Source: Bergeyella zoohelcum ATCC 43767 (GTDB taxonomy: Bacteria > Bacteroidota > Bacteroidia > Flavobacteriales > Weeksellaceae). Taken from it: a DNA stretch of 64,000 bases. A program made the translations under genes and the position numbers. The stretch spans positions 1,039,755 to 1,103,754 of the forward strand of contig NZ_JH932293.1 of the NCBI RefSeq assembly GCF_000301075.1. The letters run 5' to 3'. The notes under the pieces were generated by a model, which was given only the letters and a program-made list of their open reading frames with translations, did not search any database and had not been told where the DNA came from. Position 1 is the stretch's first letter; the number at the start of each line of letters is the position of its first letter. This document shows, in pieces, positions 32,581-40,604 of the stretch.

Positions 32581-34968
32581 TTAAAATTCCACAATTATCC
32601 CAAAATAAGGCAAAGGTGTGGTACGATCTGGTGTATCCATATTCAGCTGATAGCGTTGCTGGGAAGGTAATGCAGAAGGATTGGCAATAATACCATTCCC
32701 TTGTGTATCTCGTTCTAATGAAACTACAGGTAATATACTTGGATTTTTAGAGCCATATACATTCACAATGTCCATATAAGCTGTCAGTTGCCACTTGGAA
32801 AATATCCATTTTTTTTCAGCACGAATATCCAATTGATGCACGGCGTTTCCTCTCAAAGAATTTTGTCTAGAGTAGTCATATACAGGAGCATTATTGATAT
32901 TCCAAATATTCACCAGTCCACTGGTCATGATATCATAAGGCGTTTGTGGAAATCCTGATTGCATTCTAAATCGGGCACCTAAGTTCCAATTTCTACCTAA
33001 ATACTTTCCTGCCGTTAAAGATACGATATGCCTTGTATCCCAGCTCGATGGCAATAAATTCCCCACAGCATCGCTAAACTTAGAATAGCCAAAAGTATAG
33101 GCCGCAATACCATAAAAATTATTTACCGTTCTTTTTTGTGCTAAAATCTCCACTCCATAGGTTTCTCCCACTCCTCGGCTATCCAATGCTTCGGCACCAA
33201 TGACCCCAAAATCAGAGCCTAAATTTGCCATAGAGACACCATTTCTAAGTGAGAAAGGATAGTTTTTATATTTTTTATAATAAGTCTCTGCCGTAATTCT
33301 CAGCTGGTTCTTCCCCTTGTACTCTAGCCCTGCTACCACTTGAGCATTTTGGATGTATTTCAATGTATTTTGGTTCACCAAAACACCCTTTTGCATGAAT
33401 CCCATGGCGGTATATGCAGGTTTCATAAAATACTGCCCTGCATTAAAGTTCAGGCTCCATTTCGGAGAAAGTGCGTATCTTAAGGAAAGCCTTGGTGAAA
33501 ACTGTTTCAAAGGATTATTCATCATCCGTGAATATGAATTCCCATCTACCCTTAACCCTACGGAAACCTGCAACTGATCATCTAACAATTTAGTATTCCC
33601 CTGAAAGTAAGCCCCGTACTCCACCAATTCTACATCGGTTTGATATTCATCTTTTAAGACCCCCGTAGCAGTTACCCTATTGACCAAAGAAGTATTTCTA
33701 TAATTGGCGAAATTAACATTCGTCCCTGTACTCATCTGATAATCTCCGAGACGGAAATTTCTATCTATACGCATTTTATTTTCCACCTCTTGCGAATCAT
33801 AATCTAACAAAAGATTTTCAGGAGTTTCTCTATTTCGGTAGTATTTTTTTGCTTTATTATCCAGCATATTTCTACTCATGGTAAAGAGCCAGTTTCCATT
33901 CTCTGTAAGGTGTCTATATCCTGCTCCTATGGTATAATTCCATTGGGGTGTAACGGGCAGTCTTTCTATCAAAGAGAGATTATAAGGCGTATTTTTTGCA
34001 TTTTGGTTAAAAGTAAACTCATCTATTGCCCCTATACCGATGAAATAAAGTTCATCTCCGCTTTGGTATTTCTTAGCAATCTTAATATTCGTATCATAAT
34101 ACGAAGGCAAAAATGGCAAACCGATGGCTTTAAAAAGAAGCTGTAAATTAGATTTTCTTACTGAGAAAAGTCCTGTCCAGCTTTGATCTTTAGACAAAGG
34201 ACCATCTGCCATGATTTGCATATCATCCAGCCCTAAAATCACTTTATAGCCCATCTTATCTTTTCGGGCATTTTTAAGATTAAACTCAAAAAGAGAAGAC
34301 AGTGTTCTATTTCTTTTGGCAGGAAAAGCACCGCTATAAAAATCCACATCTTTAATAAAATCTACGGTAAGAATACCTCTTGGCCCACCACTTGCTCCTT
34401 GGGTTTGAAAGTGATTAATCACAGGGACCTCTATTCCATCTACAAAAAATGTATTCTCTGATGAGGCACCTCCACGGATGAATAAATCATTTCTAAAAGT
34501 TGCCGTAGTTCCTACACCTGGCAGAGAAAGCATTGCTTTGGAAACATCACGATTAGAACCTGGATTTTTCTGCACCTCTTCACTAGAAATATTTCTAAGA
34601 GAGACAGGACTTTCAGGAGTAGTTTTATATACTTTTCTGGAAATGACTACTTCTCCTATGGCTCTGGTATTATTTTTCTTAAGCCCAATGGAATGCAAGA
34701 TATTCTGCTCAGGTAACACAGAAATATCATTCAGTGTGCCTACTTCATATCCCTCTGCCGAAATGATAAATGAATAATCTCCTGCCTCTAAGCCATCTAT
34801 TTCCACACTTCCTACTCCCATCACTTCCTTTTCGGAGTTCAGTACTTGTACTTTTGCAGCAAGTGGCTGTTTAGAAAAATCATCATATATAGAAATAGTT
34901 ATTTTTCCCGTTTGAGCAATAGCGAATGTGCTTACCACAGTAGCTAATAACACCAAATGTTTTCTCAT
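32581..34968 (-). CDS. TonB-dependent receptor with carboxypeptidase-like N-domain
   Basis: A 795-residue outer membrane receptor. Residues 1-18 are a signal peptide, followed by a carboxypeptidase-regulatory-like beta domain (about 20-97). The plug domain includes SVSLRN-like VSLRNISSEEVQKNPGSNRDV and FIRGGASSENTFFVDGIEVP (about 163-182). The rest is a 22-strand-type barrel ending in FGIIVEF with a C-terminal Phe. It is divergent from the ankyrin/DUF2271/PepSY/ApbE operon and shares its regulatory region. I infer that it imports the metal complex or cofactor that operon handles. The last codons abut dusB. Confidence 0.9.
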   Translation of the reverse strand: MRKHLVLLATVVSTFAIAQTGKITISIYDDFSKQPLAAKVQVLNSEKEVMGVGSVEIDGLEAGDYSFIISAEGYEVGTLNDISVLPEQNILHSIGLKKNNTRAIGEVVISRKVYKTTPESPVSLRNISSEEVQKNPGSNRDVSKAMLSLPGVGTTATFRNDLFIRGGASSENTFFVDGIEVPVINHFQTQGASGGPRGILTVDFIKDVDFYSGAFPAKRNRTLSSLFEFNLKNARKDKMGYKVILGLDDMQIMADGPLSKDQSWTGLFSVRKSNLQLLFKAIGLPFLPSYYDTNIKIAKKYQSGDELYFIGIGAIDEFTFNQNAKNTPYNLSLIERLPVTPQWNYTIGAGYRHLTENGNWLFTMSRNMLDNKAKKYYRNRETPENLLLDYDSQEVENKMRIDRNFRLGDYQMSTGTNVNFANYRNTSLVNRVTATGVLKDEYQTDVELVEYGAYFQGNTKLLDDQLQVSVGLRVDGNSYSRMMNNPLKQFSPRLSLRYALSPKWSLNFNAGQYFMKPAYTAMGFMQKGVLVNQNTLKYIQNAQVVAGLEYKGKNQLRITAETYYKKYKNYPFSLRNGVSMANLGSDFGVIGAEALDSRGVGETYGVEILAQKRTVNNFYGIAAYTFGYSKFSDAVGNLLPSSWDTRHIVSLTAGKYLGRNWNLGARFRMQSGFPQTPYDIMTSGLVNIWNINNAPVYDYSRQNSLRGNAVHQLDIRAEKKWIFSKWQLTAYMDIVNVYGSKNPSILPVVSLERDTQGNGIIANPSALPSQQRYQLNMDTPDRTTPLPYFGIIVEF

Positions 34969-35092: not shown

Positions 35093-35122
35093 GCATGTTA
35101 TTTAGAATTATTATAATTAACC

Positions 35123-35235: not shown

Positions 35236-36717
35236 ATGAAAAGAATTTTCATACTCAGTGGACTATTCGTCAATGCCTTTTTATTAGGGCAAAATAAATT
35301 TCTGAATCAAAATTACTGGAAAGCAAAGCCTACGGTAGAAACAATCAAAGCAGATATATCTGCAGGACATTCACCTTCTGAATTTAATGATGGGCTATTT
35401 GACCCTGTAACCCTTGCCATCAATAATGATGCACCTTATGAAACTATTATTTATCTCCTGTCTCAAGACGGGAACGCGGTGAATAAAGTAACTCATGATG
35501 GTAGAATTTATCTTCACTGGGCATCATTTAGAAACCGTACCGAACTGGTAGAATACCTCATCAAAGCAGGCTCTGACCTCTACGCAAAAGATACAGGTGG
35601 AAGGACGCCCTTTGATTTTGGAGCACTTGGAGGAATGACCAAAGCTACTTTTGAAAAATATTTTAACGCAGGTTATCCTGTAAAAAAATTAGATAACAAT
35701 GGTGCAAATGCCTTGATGATAGCCGCTGCAAGGGATAATGAAAAACTAGAAACCACGGAGTATCTCATTTCTAAAGGACTTAGCGTAAAAGACAAAGATA
35801 AGTTCGGAAGAACCATTGTGGATTATGCTACCAGAGCAGGAAATGTAAAAACCGTAGAGGCAATGGTAAAAAAAGGCTATCCCTATACAGACCAAGCTCT
35901 GATCATGGCTGCTATGGGAATAAGAGCCACCAATAGTCTCCCTATTTTTACTTATCTGATAGAAACATTAAAAATTAACCCTGATACTACGGATAAAGAG
36001 GGTAAAAATGCACTCCACTACCTTGCAGGAAAAGACAATAGTGAAGAACAAGTAGCTTTTCTACTGAGCAAAAAAATAAATACAGGAAAGATAGACACTG
36101 AAGGAGCTTCTCCATTTCTTTCGGCAGCTAAAAGCAAAAATTTAAAAAATATCACGGCATTACTTAAATCCGAAAGGAATAAAAACCTCATCAATACGGG
36201 AAATAACCTCGCTCAAACCCCACTGATGATGGCCGCCCAATATTCTACCCCAGAAATGATGGAGTACCTCATCCTAAACGGAGCGAAAACCGATGTAAAA
36301 GACAATAAAGGAAATGGATTATTGTACTATATTACACAAAGTTATTCTCCAAGAAGAAAAGAAAGTGTACAGCATATCTCACAAAAACTAACTCTCCTGA
36401 AAAAGAATCATTTCCAATTTGGAACAAAAAATGCAAATGAAAATACACTTCTTCATTTGATAGCAGAAACGGACAATATAGAGCTGATGAAAATAGCCTT
36501 GCAATTCTCTCAAGAGGTCAATGCCCAAAATAGCCAAGGCAATACCGCACTGATGAATAATGCAATGGTAGCCACCTCTGAAAATATTATGAAACTACTC
36601 ATAGAAGCAGGAGCCAATACCCAAATAGAAAATGAATTTGGAGAAACTGCTCATGCTCTGGCTTCTGAAAATGAAATTTTACAATCTAAAAATATCAATC
36701 TTAGCTTTTTAAAATAA
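35236..36717 (+). CDS. Exported ankyrin-repeat protein
   Basis: A 493-residue protein with a signal peptide (about 1-18, MKRIFILSGLFVNAFLLGQ). It is then built of ankyrin repeats, for example DGRIYLHWASFRNRTELVEYLIKAGSDLYAKD, NGANALMIAAARDNEKLETTEYLISKG and NTALMNNAMVATSENIMKLLIEAGAN. About nine to ten repeats fill the protein. No enzyme domain is visible, so it is probably a periplasmic binding or scaffold protein. It is the first gene of an operon with a DUF2271 protein (5 bases later), a PepSY reductase and ApbE. Its role there is unknown; I would guess partner or inhibitor binding. Confidence 0.85.
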   Translation: MKRIFILSGLFVNAFLLGQNKFLNQNYWKAKPTVETIKADISAGHSPSEFNDGLFDPVTLAINNDAPYETIIYLLSQDGNAVNKVTHDGRIYLHWASFRNRTELVEYLIKAGSDLYAKDTGGRTPFDFGALGGMTKATFEKYFNAGYPVKKLDNNGANALMIAAARDNEKLETTEYLISKGLSVKDKDKFGRTIVDYATRAGNVKTVEAMVKKGYPYTDQALIMAAMGIRATNSLPIFTYLIETLKINPDTTDKEGKNALHYLAGKDNSEEQVAFLLSKKINTGKIDTEGASPFLSAAKSKNLKNITALLKSERNKNLINTGNNLAQTPLMMAAQYSTPEMMEYLILNGAKTDVKDNKGNGLLYYITQSYSPRRKESVQHISQKLTLLKKNHFQFGTKNANENTLLHLIAETDNIELMKIALQFSQEVNAQNSQGNTALMNNAMVATSENIMKLLIEAGANTQIENEFGETAHALASENEILQSKNINLSFLK

Positions 36718-36722
36718 TTATA

Positions 36723-37193
36723 ATGAATATCAAGAAAATTTTCGCAGTTGGTGCATTGTTAATGGCAAGTATTGCCTTCGGACAGAATAAATACAAATGC
36801 TTAGTACAAATGAAAAATTACCCAGGACAAGGGGCTTACATTGCGGCCTACATTGTAAATGGTAAAGGACAATTTGTAAAAACCTTACAAGTGATGGGTG
36901 ATGACGAAAGATGGTATGATAGCCTCAAAACATGGCATAATGCACAAAATAAAAAAGCAGAAAAACTAGATGCCATTACAGGAGCTTCCGTTTCAGGTGG
37001 AAAAAGAAATATATTCACCATTCAAATAGATGAAAGCCTGATGAATAAGGGGAATAAAATCCGTTTTGAAAGTGCAGTGGAACATGGAGAATATGTGGCT
37101 TCTGAATTAGAGATTCCTTTGGATAAAGCTACTATTGAAGAAAAAGTAGATGGCAAAGGATACATCCGTTTTGTAAAAATAAATAGTATTTAA
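36723..37193 (+). CDS. DUF2271 protein, likely flavinylated periplasmic electron carrier
   Basis: A 156-residue exported protein with a signal peptide (1-20, ending AFG). The rest matches what I know of DUF2271: QMKNYPGQGAYIAAYIVNGKGQFVKTL and DDERWYDSLKTWHNAQ. Residues 83-89 read DAITGAS. This fits the pattern at which ApbE attaches FMN to a Ser/Thr (D-x-x-[ST]-G-A-[ST]), which would put FMN on Thr86. An apbE gene lies downstream in the same operon, and the next gene encodes an electron-supplying membrane flavoprotein whose start overlaps this stop by one base (TAATG). The electron-carrier role is inferred from motif and context. Confidence 0.82.
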   Translation: MNIKKIFAVGALLMASIAFGQNKYKCLVQMKNYPGQGAYIAAYIVNGKGQFVKTLQVMGDDERWYDSLKTWHNAQNKKAEKLDAITGASVSGGKRNIFTIQIDESLMNKGNKIRFESAVEHGEYVASELEIPLDKATIEEKVDGKGYIRFVKINSI

Positions 37194-39346
37194 TGACAAA
37201 GAAAATATGGAGATACAGCCACCTTGCTGTGGCTGTTATCATTTTTATTTACTTATTTATAGCGTCTATTACAGGCGCTATTTTAGGTGTACACGAGGCA
37301 TTGAAACCTTCGGATAAATTTCAGGATTTCCCTATCAGTACGGTAATTGAAAAGGCACAAGAAAACTATGCTGAAATAATTTCCATAAAGAAAAATGGAG
37401 AACATCAGTTGGAAATTCAGGCGTATAATGAAGATTATGACGAAATAAAGGGAATTATTAACCCACAGACAGGAAAAATCACCGAGGGAAAAATAGAAAA
37501 AAATAAATTTATAGAGTGGATTACAGTCCTCCATCGTTCCTTATTTCTAGACAATCAGGGTAGGATGCTGGTAGGAATACTTACTCTACTATTTGTAATC
37601 GAGATGATTACAGGTTTTTTCTACATGCTAAGAATCATTCCAAAGAAAAAACATCTCTTTACCAAGTGGAACTATGGCTCTTTCCCTATGACTTTCCATC
37701 ATTCCGTATCTCGATTGGTTTTCATTCCGCTCTTCATCATAGGAATTACGGGGGCTGTGCTTTTTTTCTTCCGATTCAATATCCTCCAAGAAACCCCTGC
37801 ATCAGAGCAAAAACTTACCATTGAAAAAACAAAAAACAAAAGCGTAAAAGATTTTGACTTCCTGCAAAAAACCACTGTAAATCAGTTAGTATCTTTTGAT
37901 TTACCTTTTGATGAATCTGAAAATTATAGAATAGAAACTACCGAAGGAAAGTACGAATTAGACTACCATTCTGGAGCAGTAGTAAGCCAAGAAGTGAATA
38001 CCCCAGCTACGCAGTGGAAAACGCTTTCTTTTAATTTGCATACAGGAAAATCAAGCAATATTTGGGCGTGGGTCATTTCCCTTGCTGCACTGAGTATTCC
38101 AGGATTTATCATCACAGGGTTTATGCTTTTTGCACAGAAAAGAAAACCTACTACAAAACGCTTCTCTACTTCTCAAGAGGCAAAAGTCATCCTTCTCTAC
38201 GGCTCTGAAAACGGTAGCACAAGGGAAATCGCCTACCAGTATGCTGAACAAATCCACCAACAAGGAAATAAAGTATTTCTGGGAACGCTCAATGAATGGA
38301 CAGTCTTCCCCAATGCTGAAAAAATACTCCTACTCACTTCTACTTACGGTAATGGAGAAGCTCCGAGCAGTGCCGATTCTTTTTTACAAAAGTTAGAACA
38401 ACAGGCACCGAATAAAGCTGTAAAAATAGGTATCATAGGTTTTGGTTCTAAGGATTACGAACATTATAATGCTTTTGCAAAAACTATTTTTAGCCAAATT
38501 CAGAATAAAGGAGAAATTGTATTTTTTGATGCCATCAATGATAAAAATACAGCGGAAATCCAAGCGGCTGAAGAAAAAATCAGAAGACATTTAGACCTTG
38601 CGGTGATTTCTAATACAAAAGAAGAAATAGAAATTCAATACCATGATGCAAAACTCATAGGTAAAACCGATATTTCTGAACGAAATGGATACACGATGCT
38701 AAATATACAAACGGACAAGAAATTTAAAAGCGGTGATTTATTGAGAGTACAGCTCCCAAACTCAGAGCTATTTAGATATTATTCCATCAGCCAATCCGAG
38801 AATAAAAATACCATTGACTTAGTAACCAAATACATTCCAAATGGTTTATGTTCTGAATATTTCAAATCATTATCTCAAGGAGCAACATTATCAGTAGCCA
38901 TAGAAAAAAATGATACATTTCATTTTGAAAATGTGCCTACCATTATGATTTGCAATGGTACTGGCATCGCTCCATTCATTGGAATGATTGCACATAATCT
39001 CCAAAAAATACCTATTACGCTGTATGCTGGTTTCCGATTTAAAGAAGAAAGCACGGAAAAACTACGCCAAAGACTGGTAAATCAACAAAAAGACGGGCTT
39101 CTTTCTTCACTCTACTGGACCTACTCACGAGATGAGCAACAGCAAAGAATCACCGCCTTCATTGAAAAAGATATAGCGTCCATTATCTCCCACCTCTGCA
39201 AGGGGTATCCCGTGATGATTTGTGGAGCGTTAGAACTAAAAAATGAAGTAGAAACACTTATTTCTAATGAATTAAAAAAACAAAAAAGCACTATCACTAT
39301 AGAAGATTTATATCTTAGGAAAGTATTGAAAGCCGATTGTTATTAA
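37193..39346 (+). CDS. PepSY transmembrane-flavodoxin-FNR fusion reductase
   Basis: A 717-residue membrane flavoprotein. Residues 1-320 are a PepSY-associated TM domain with four helices (about 11-33, 126-148, 174-195, 289-313) and histidines (10, 114, 169/170, 283) placed to bind heme. Residues about 331-470 are flavodoxin-like (LLYGSENGSTREIA, TSTYGNGEAPSSAD). The remainder is a ferredoxin-NADP reductase module of the sulfite-reductase/P450-reductase type (RYYSISQ for FAD, CNGTGIAPFIGM for NADPH). I infer electron flow NADPH-FAD-FMN-heme to the periplasm, where the flavinylated DUF2271 protein can accept them. Similar proteins are annotated as iron-uptake or ferric reductases. Confidence 0.85.
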   Translation: MTKKIWRYSHLAVAVIIFIYLFIASITGAILGVHEALKPSDKFQDFPISTVIEKAQENYAEIISIKKNGEHQLEIQAYNEDYDEIKGIINPQTGKITEGKIEKNKFIEWITVLHRSLFLDNQGRMLVGILTLLFVIEMITGFFYMLRIIPKKKHLFTKWNYGSFPMTFHHSVSRLVFIPLFIIGITGAVLFFFRFNILQETPASEQKLTIEKTKNKSVKDFDFLQKTTVNQLVSFDLPFDESENYRIETTEGKYELDYHSGAVVSQEVNTPATQWKTLSFNLHTGKSSNIWAWVISLAALSIPGFIITGFMLFAQKRKPTTKRFSTSQEAKVILLYGSENGSTREIAYQYAEQIHQQGNKVFLGTLNEWTVFPNAEKILLLTSTYGNGEAPSSADSFLQKLEQQAPNKAVKIGIIGFGSKDYEHYNAFAKTIFSQIQNKGEIVFFDAINDKNTAEIQAAEEKIRRHLDLAVISNTKEEIEIQYHDAKLIGKTDISERNGYTMLNIQTDKKFKSGDLLRVQLPNSELFRYYSISQSENKNTIDLVTKYIPNGLCSEYFKSLSQGATLSVAIEKNDTFHFENVPTIMICNGTGIAPFIGMIAHNLQKIPITLYAGFRFKEESTEKLRQRLVNQQKDGLLSSLYWTYSRDEQQQRITAFIEKDIASIISHLCKGYPVMICGALELKNEVETLISNELKKQKSTITIEDLYLRKVLKADCY

Positions 39347-39368
39347 ATTCAATACCCAAATCATTATC

Positions 39369-40334
39369 ATGAAAAGAACATTTTCTATTTCTGTTTTGGG
39401 GAATAGGGGGATATTCCTCTTTTCTCTAATGTGCTTCCATACCATTTTCGGGCAGAAGAAAGTCAACGTGGACACTATTTTGATGGGGTCTCCGTTTCAT
39501 ATAGTAGTGTATCATGAAGATGAGAATTATGGAAAAATGGCCATACATGAATCCATCAAAGAAATCATTCGGATAGAAAATCTCATTTCAGAGTGGCAAC
39601 CCAATACTCCCGTATCCGAAATCAATCGGTACGCTGGAAAAAAAGCCATCGCAGTTAATGATGAACTGTTTCATCTTTTGGTAATAGCTAAAAAATATAG
39701 TGAAACTTCGGAAGGAATTTTTGATATTACTTACGCCGGAATGGAAAGGATATGGAAGTACGATGGCTCCATGTCTCAAATCCCTACTGATACTCAAATC
39801 AAAAAAGCCTTAGAAGGAGTAGGAAGTCAATATTTACAACTCAACAAATCCAATAAAACCGTATTTCTCACGCATCCTAAAACAAGAATAAGCTTTGGGT
39901 CTATTGGAAAGGCGTATTCGGTACAAAAAGCCATGGAAGTATTAGGGCGTTTCGGAATAGAAAGTGCTTTAGTAAATGGCAGTGGCGATATCATGGCAAT
40001 AGGAAATCCACCAAAGAAAAAAGCATGGACAGTGGGTATTTTCCGTCCTTATAGAAAAAGAAAATACAAAAAAATCCATCTTAAAAATGAAGCCATAGTA
40101 ACCAGTGGAGATTATGAAAAATTCGCACTTATCGGAAATAAAAAGTATGGACATATCATTCACCCCAAAACGGGAATGCCCTCCACGGAAGTCAGTAGTG
40201 TTTCGGTAAAAGGCAAAGATGCTGTCATTGCAAATTTCCTTAGCACCACGCTGATGCTCACCAATCCCAAAGAAAGGAGAAGACTTCAAAAATTATTTCC
40301 CGATTATACCATTTGGATACAAAAAAGGAGATAA
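39369..40334 (+). CDS. apbE: FAD:protein FMN transferase (ApbE)
   Basis: ApbE transfers FMN from FAD to a Ser/Thr of extracytoplasmic proteins. The 321-residue product has an N-terminal hydrophobic export segment (to about residue 28). It keeps NLISEWQPNTPVSEINRYAG (71-90), SFGSIGKAYSVQKAMEVL (175-192), LVNGSGDIMAIG (201-212) and GHIIHPKTG (261-269). The usual ADALST metal-site motif reads A-N-F-L-S-T at 288-293, so the conserved Asp is Asn289. There is no lipobox cysteine at the signal end. It lies 22 bases after the PepSY reductase. The probable target is the DAITGAS motif of the operon's DUF2271 protein. Confidence 0.9.
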   Translation: MKRTFSISVLGNRGIFLFSLMCFHTIFGQKKVNVDTILMGSPFHIVVYHEDENYGKMAIHESIKEIIRIENLISEWQPNTPVSEINRYAGKKAIAVNDELFHLLVIAKKYSETSEGIFDITYAGMERIWKYDGSMSQIPTDTQIKKALEGVGSQYLQLNKSNKTVFLTHPKTRISFGSIGKAYSVQKAMEVLGRFGIESALVNGSGDIMAIGNPPKKKAWTVGIFRPYRKRKYKKIHLKNEAIVTSGDYEKFALIGNKKYGHIIHPKTGMPSTEVSSVSVKGKDAVIANFLSTTLMLTNPKERRRLQKLFPDYTIWIQKRR

Positions 40335-40560: not shown

Positions 40561-40565
40561 AAACA

Positions 40566-40604
40566 TAAAAACAGTACAAATATTAGAATTTGTACTGTTT
40601 TTAT
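40566..40604 (-). terminator. Intrinsic terminator of the gldKLMN operon
   Basis: AAAAACAGTACAAAT and ATTTGTACTGTTTTT form a perfect 15-bp stem with a short loop, flanked by A and T runs so it can work on both strands. It lies about 45 bases past the gldN stop at 40650. It may also stop transcripts coming from apbE. Confidence 0.85.

Follow-up and report, generated by a model that had tools for sequence, protein, structure and literature searches.

A predicted iron-linked PepSY/DUF2271/ApbE flavinylation operon headed by an ankyrin-repeat gene in Bergeyella zoohelcum

Flavinylated proteins are widely used for electron transfer in the periplasm, and a question in these systems is what places a small soluble carrier between its reductase and its acceptor. 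Among the closest described relatives of the locus considered here are the PepSY flavinylation clusters, which have been linked to iron and show links to Fur and TonB-dependent receptors (Meheust et al. 2021, PMC8238504). For one DUF2271 protein, flavinylation by the cognate ApbE has been shown, and it is abolished when the predicted site is changed from Thr to Ala (PMC8238504). In the motif D-x-x-[ST]-G-A-[ST] it is the final residue that carries the FMN (reviewed in PMC12052999). DUF4198 is optional rather than defining in the published clusters, being present in 1500 of 3220 (PMC8238504). An operon of B. zoohelcum ATCC 43767, located in the 64,000-nucleotide stretch of contig NZ_JH932293.1 that was analysed (the window), belongs to this class and its core idea is thus already known. 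What the present analysis adds is a near-obligate ankyrin partner, evidence for Fur control, a correction of the flavinylated residue to Ser89, a likely receptor pair and an altered site in ApbE.

A first-pass annotation of the window had proposed four co-directional genes at 35236–40334 encoding an ankyrin protein, a DUF2271 protein, a PepSY reductase and ApbE. The four reading frames are present exactly there, all four contents are matched by Pfam, and the spacing of the ORFs (5 nt, a 1-nt overlap and 22 nt) is operon-like. The features of the locus, in window coordinates, are:

32581–34968, minus strand: divergent TonB-dependent receptor (Pfam TonB_dep_Rec_b-barrel and Plug)
35100–35118, unstranded: Fur-box-like imperfect palindrome ATTTAGAATTATTATAATT, in the gap that separates the operon from the divergent receptor gene
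35236–36717, plus strand: ankyrin gene, 493 aa, first gene of the operon, product predicted to be exported (Pfam ankyrin models, AlphaFold2)
36723–37193, plus strand: DUF2271 gene, 156 aa, predicted exported carrier of covalent FMN (PF10029, motif)
37193–39346, plus strand: PepSY_TM-flavodoxin-FNR reductase gene, 717 aa, product predicted to lie in the inner membrane (Pfam, AlphaFold2 model)
39369–40334, plus strand: ApbE flavin transferase gene, 321 aa (PF02424)
40565–40604, unstranded: 17-bp stem with a 6-nt loop (terminator-like scan; stem seen in the folded strand)

The N-termini of the ankyrin and DUF2271 proteins resemble signal peptides on direct reading of the sequence. The strong hairpin at 40565–40604 is situated between the operon and the convergent gldN and is likely to act as a two-way terminator for both.

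The DUF2271 protein matches PF10029 with 115.9 bits (cut-off 27.3), and a search of the PDB returned no credible relative (best E 0.035). The DAITGAS motif reported in the first pass is found at residues 83–89 (D83-A-I-T-G-A-S89) and contains the [ST]GA[ST] acceptor sequence. Among 47 DUF2271 relatives the motif positions are kept in 43 (T86), 47 (G87), 46 (A88) and 45 (S89) proteins, the remaining two having Thr in place of Ser89. The motif Asp is mostly Ser or Asn in these proteins (Asp in 13 of 47) and is retained in that of the window. As flavin is carried on the last residue of the motif (PMC12052999), the predicted FMN site should be Ser89, and its earlier assignment to Thr86 was mistaken.

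The reductase combines PepSY_TM, Flavodoxin_1, FAD_binding_6 and NAD_binding_1 domains. Its PepSY_TM match (PF03929) has an E value of 5e-29 and 102 bits against a cut-off of 28.8, and its gene adjoins those of DUF2271 and ApbE. The AlphaFold2 model contains four predicted TM helices (residues 2–36, 121–148, 164–194 and 289–316), and His10, His114, His169 and His283 are invariant in 41 reductase relatives. The structural matches listed for the whole-reductase model are taken up by the diflavin half and do not include FoxB; the N-terminal half was therefore compared with the PDB as a sequence profile, and its best match is FoxB (7abw; E 2.4e-4, residues 10–195 only). The four invariant histidines and this weak match fit a protein that would bind two hemes. 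The C-terminal half is a diflavin unit of the CPR/NOS type by sequence and by its structural match to CPR and nNOS (Z about 27), which fits NADPH as the electron donor. Ser645 is invariant and Arg646 frequent among the relatives, a pair that we take to be the CPR pattern for NADPH. The predicted sites of the reductase are thus those for two hemes, FMN, FAD and NADPH.

ApbE matches PF02424 with 227.7 bits (cut-off 25.6). The genome holds a single ApbE and a single DUF2271, and searches of it found no FMN_bind protein and no NqrB/RnfD protein, so that among these families each looks to be the only recognised partner of the other and the pairing dedicated. This content agrees with the original proposal that the carrier, the enzyme that loads it and the membrane reductase belong together. 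The term transenvelope, which had been applied to the chain, does not fit, as its parts reach only from the cytoplasm to the periplasm.

The four-gene cassette is not a chance arrangement, since a search with the reductase recovered 11 further full-length copies and the order ankyrin-DUF2271-reductase-ApbE is intact in 12 of 12 genomes with a full-length relative (window included). Identity to the window reductase is only about 30% among these, which makes the kept gene order informative. The ankyrin protein had been set aside in the first pass as having no obvious part in known schemes. A scan seeded with the ankyrin protein alone places DUF2271 directly after it in 80 of 80 named Bacteroidota loci from Flavobacterium, Chryseobacterium, Apibacter, Pedobacter, Dyadobacter, Adhaeribacter, Chitinophagaceae and others; these loci, ordered by their likeness to the ankyrin protein of the window, are rich in Flavobacterium and do not amount to 80 independent events. 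With two loci added, DUF2271 comes next in 82 of 82, and PepSY and ApbE are present in 80 and 75 of them, respectively. A fairer test is an independent draw of 296 Bacteroidota genomes in which ankyrin and DUF2271 were searched separately. Here a full-length ankyrin match (E below 1e-100) occurs in 20 genomes and DUF2271 above its cut-off in 22, and all 20 ankyrin genomes also bear DUF2271, so that 20 of the 22 DUF2271 genomes have the ankyrin. The two genes are adjacent by coordinates in 19 of the 20, and in the remaining genome both lie at contig ends. In the two genomes with DUF2271 and no ankyrin, DUF2271 sits in a long reading frame together with an ApbE match. The pairing spans Flavobacteriia, Sphingobacteriia, Cytophagia and Chitinophagaceae. 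In Bacteroidota, DUF2271 has no more regular partner than the ankyrin protein and, judged from these comparisons, the ankyrin gene is an integral and near-obligate member of the cassette.

Five Pfam ankyrin models match the protein (best E 2e-42), and its AlphaFold2 model (mean pLDDT 94) consists of about 13 repeats end to end and no other domain; it is a pure solenoid and has no catalytic domain. A fold search returned only ankyrin-repeat proteins and designed DARPins among the matches listed and gave no functional clue. An identity as a Legionella-type effector was rejected, the NCBIfam matches being far below cut-off and reflecting common repeats only. Given a pure solenoid, the best guess, and a tentative one, is that it may serve as a docking platform, keeping the small carrier close to the proteins it works with. 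By extension, Bacteroidota may use a dedicated periplasmic ankyrin protein as an obligate scaffold for a flavinylated DUF2271 carrier, served by a subfamily of ApbE with an altered metal site. The constant adjacency to DUF2271 (80 of 80 loci) would also suit an alternative, likewise tentative and hardly less likely, in which the ankyrin protein helps DUF2271 or ApbE in folding or flavinylation, or binds the outer-membrane receptor or the ferric ligand. Among the positions through which designed ankyrins face their partners, conservation is highest in the last repeat (mean 0.90, with E470 and N479 invariant in 47 relatives), and a second conserved patch of the concave face lies in repeat 2 (H87, D88 and R90; same relatives); the repeat register was set by hand from the helix starts and makes this an indication only. 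The two patches make a specific partner likely and to that extent speak for the alternative. The persistence of the solenoid gene beside that of the carrier across groups makes carrier positioning directly testable. A literature search that reached few subscription journals and no supplements found no paper discussing an ankyrin protein with DUF2271 or PepSY. The word ankyrin does not occur in the main text of PMC8238504, and the cluster tables published with that study may list the gene.

Inverted repeats in the region shared with the divergent receptor had been noted in the first pass. One of them is the Fur-box-like palindrome at 35100–35118, central in the 267-nt promoter region and 117 nt before the ankyrin start; the others are mostly weak, AT-rich pairs and were left aside. 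The palindrome agrees at 17 of 19 bases (two mismatches) with the R. anatipestifer Fur consensus ATTTAGAATTATTCTAAAT, a 19-bp sequence that was the single motif chosen before the scan and was then confirmed in the literature (PMC5609570). In the 64 kb of the window the motif gives two strand matches at one site versus 0.23 expected, and the whole genome contains 15 distinct sites with up to three mismatches (21 strand matches versus 3 for the reversed motif). The four best of these belong to a TonB receptor, an SDH subunit, the present operon and an HmuY/TonB-receptor pair, and among the weaker sites are some close to ferritin, HemA and a FixG-like gene. Of 84 ankyrin genes, which come from related loci and are not independent, 57 are preceded by a box with up to three mismatches, versus 0 of 84 with the motif reversed and 7 of 1680 with permuted motifs; the box is poor (four or more mismatches) in the other 27.

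Iron control of the operon through this box has support from the matches and from an apparent counterpart in Riemerella anatipestifer. In strain CH-1 the genes B739_0173-0177, annotated in order as TonB receptor, hypothetical, ankyrin, predicted periplasmic protein and nitric oxide synthase, are induced by iron limitation (PMC5429918), and Fur binds the promoter of B739_0173 (PMC7976709). In strain YM, RAYM_04481 (TonB receptor), 04491, 04496, 04501 (nitric oxide synthase) and 04506 (ApbE) are likewise induced by iron limitation, and the genes still respond to iron in the absence of fur, with ratios of 5.32 and 4.35 in the delta-fur strain (PMC5609570). As induction persists in this mutant, a regulator besides Fur may act in YM.

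The divergent TonB receptor had been taken as a pointer to the substrate, and its sharing of a promoter region with a central Fur box would favour a role as the dedicated uptake partner of the reductase. Such a role is nevertheless unlikely. At about 98 other cassette loci nothing related to this receptor is found at E<1e-10, which removes it both as a substrate pointer and as a conserved neighbour, and other cassettes have beside them a different receptor of about 800 aa (31 of 82 loci) and a lipoprotein of about 443 aa (28 of 82 loci). A comparison of the divergent receptor with the PDB gave no match at E<0.01. It is probably co-regulated with the operon and stands outside the conserved cassette. 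The common receptor-lipoprotein pair is also encoded in this genome, unlinked to the operon (C1:21467–22768 and C1:22831–24999), where it is preceded by its own Fur box with two mismatches; this receptor is 40% identical to its closest relative beside cassettes. On these grounds the unlinked pair is the likely receptor partner of the cassette. The common lipoprotein has no PDB relative by sequence, either alone or as a profile, and no DUF4374 Pfam match.

It is likely that the operon responds to iron starvation by building a periplasmic ferric reductase, whose most plausible task would be to release iron from imported complexes. Under iron scarcity, Fur would leave the box at 35100–35118 and the operon would be transcribed. 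We infer that the inner-membrane reductase draws electrons from cytosolic NADPH via FAD and FMN and passes them across the membrane by two hemes held on His10, His114, His169 and His283. The electrons would then reach the periplasmic DUF2271 protein, on whose Ser89 ApbE would have placed FMN, and the reduced carrier, docked near its partners by the ankyrin solenoid, would release Fe(II) from a ferric complex taken up by TonB receptors. FeoB, which is present in the genome, could import the freed Fe(II). The original proposal of imported-metal reduction has support for iron from the Fur box and the Riemerella transcriptomes, and loses the divergent receptor as its pointer. It is improbable that the chain instead serves another periplasmic acceptor, such as copper complexes, oxidase maturation or the repair of oxidised residues, with iron scarcity as one trigger. 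PepSY_TM proteins have been tied to copper and heme-copper oxidases in two studies (PMC12914433, PMC13038864), and a TonB receptor of the common type is present in only 31 of 82 loci within the flank examined, both of which would suit this reading. Against it stand the enrichment of Fur boxes upstream of related operons, the induction of the apparent Riemerella counterpart by iron limitation and the iron links already published for the class (PMC8238504).

The ApbE of the cassette has Asn289 where characterised ApbEs have a metal-ligand Asp, a residue that in E. coli Ftp (D280) binds metal 1 together with T284 (PMC4767422). This position is Asn in 74 of 75 cassette ApbEs, whereas other Bacteroidota ApbEs have Asp (24 of 28) or Gly (4); the Asp is a subgroup trait of characterised enzymes and lies outside the definition of PF02424. 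With the usual ligand replaced, the activity of the window ApbE is not a given, and equivalence to the characterised enzymes is not claimed. The Asn would suit a reading in which this ApbE is weak or differently tuned and DUF2271 is little or not flavinylated and works in another way. This reading is very unlikely. Against it, the [ST]GA[ST] acceptor motif is retained in nearly all DUF2271 partners, His262 (the general base His257 of V. cholerae) is invariant both in 12 cassette ApbEs and throughout a comparison of 31, Thr293 is kept, and the side-chain oxygen of Asn is able to bind metal.

Set beside known systems, the locus resembles XusABC of Bacteroides (PMC13142918) in layout only, both involving a TonB receptor, a surface lipoprotein and a PepSY reductase; a Xus-type identity was rejected, as neither the lipoproteins neighbouring the cassettes nor the window operon give a DUF4374 match and an identity with XusB is unsupported. 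With NADPH-cytochrome P450 reductase, NOS reductase and CysJ the reductase shares the flavodoxin and FNR fold, but here the diflavin half is fused to a PepSY-type membrane domain that is predicted to bind heme. With the ferrisiderophore reductases FoxB and HiuABC (7abw; PMC13001220) it has in common a PepSY core with four TM helices and conserved histidines, and it differs from them in carrying a cytosolic diflavin half of its own and in having a periplasmic partner that is predicted to be flavinylated. The R. anatipestifer genes B739_0173-0177 and RAYM_04481-04506 have an equal gene order and are induced by iron limitation; they are matched by annotation and order rather than by sequence and would on that basis be the counterpart cassette. 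In the parts of those papers covered here they appear only as expression tables and are not recognised as a flavinylation system. Two literatures between which no mutual citation was found, that on the iron-induced and poorly annotated genes of Riemerella and that on flavinylation-based iron reduction, are thereby joined. The PepSY flavinylation clusters (PMC8238504) share with the present operon the PepSY_TM protein, a DUF2271 protein with [ST]GA[ST], ApbE and, in a subset of them, the NAD-binding domain. The operon described here differs from them in the absence of DUF4198, for which the genome has a single unlinked match (C1:1377821), and in the long ankyrin protein that heads it in nearly all relatives.

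In genomes that encode DUF2271, the predicted FMN carrier, without the exported ankyrin protein, an alternative layout of the system is formed by a long frame that matches both DUF2271 and ApbE, together with an adjoining small ORF of about 220 aa. The long frame was found at two loci, and a further DUF2271 gene stands apart from the other components:
L182:7281-8792, long frame with DUF2271 and ApbE match
L183:8174-9691, long frame with DUF2271 and ApbE match
L184:8585-9076, second DUF2271 gene in genome G237, with no ankyrin, PepSY or ApbE gene nearby

The ankyrin gene is itself duplicated in genome G309, where the tandem lies at a contig end and a different contig (L185) begins with its DUF2271 and PepSY genes. 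The tandem is listed here with two loci that hold a TonB receptor:
L186:86-3048, tandem pair of full-length ankyrin paralogues
L201:159-3018, HmuY protein linked to a Fur box, bearing a type IX secretion tail and divergent from a TonB receptor
L214 (G000:C1:21467-24999), TonB receptor paired with a lipoprotein, preceded by a Fur box of 2 mismatches and unlinked to the cassette in the window's own genome

Relatives of the L214 pair adjoin the cassette in other genomes; Pfam gives no convincing match for its lipoprotein family.

The ApbE of the window departs from characterised ApbEs at one metal-ligand position:
window 39369-40334, ApbE with Asn289 replacing the metal-binding Asp

Four Bacteroidota ApbEs (L235, L236, L241 and L242) have Gly at this metal-ligand position, reading AGS.[TA]T as opposed to ADA.[AS]T. 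The DUF2271 partners of the cassette ApbEs mostly lack the Asp that opens the flavinylation motif, and 74 of the 75 cassette ApbEs carry Asn at the position of the metal-binding Asp of characterised ApbEs.
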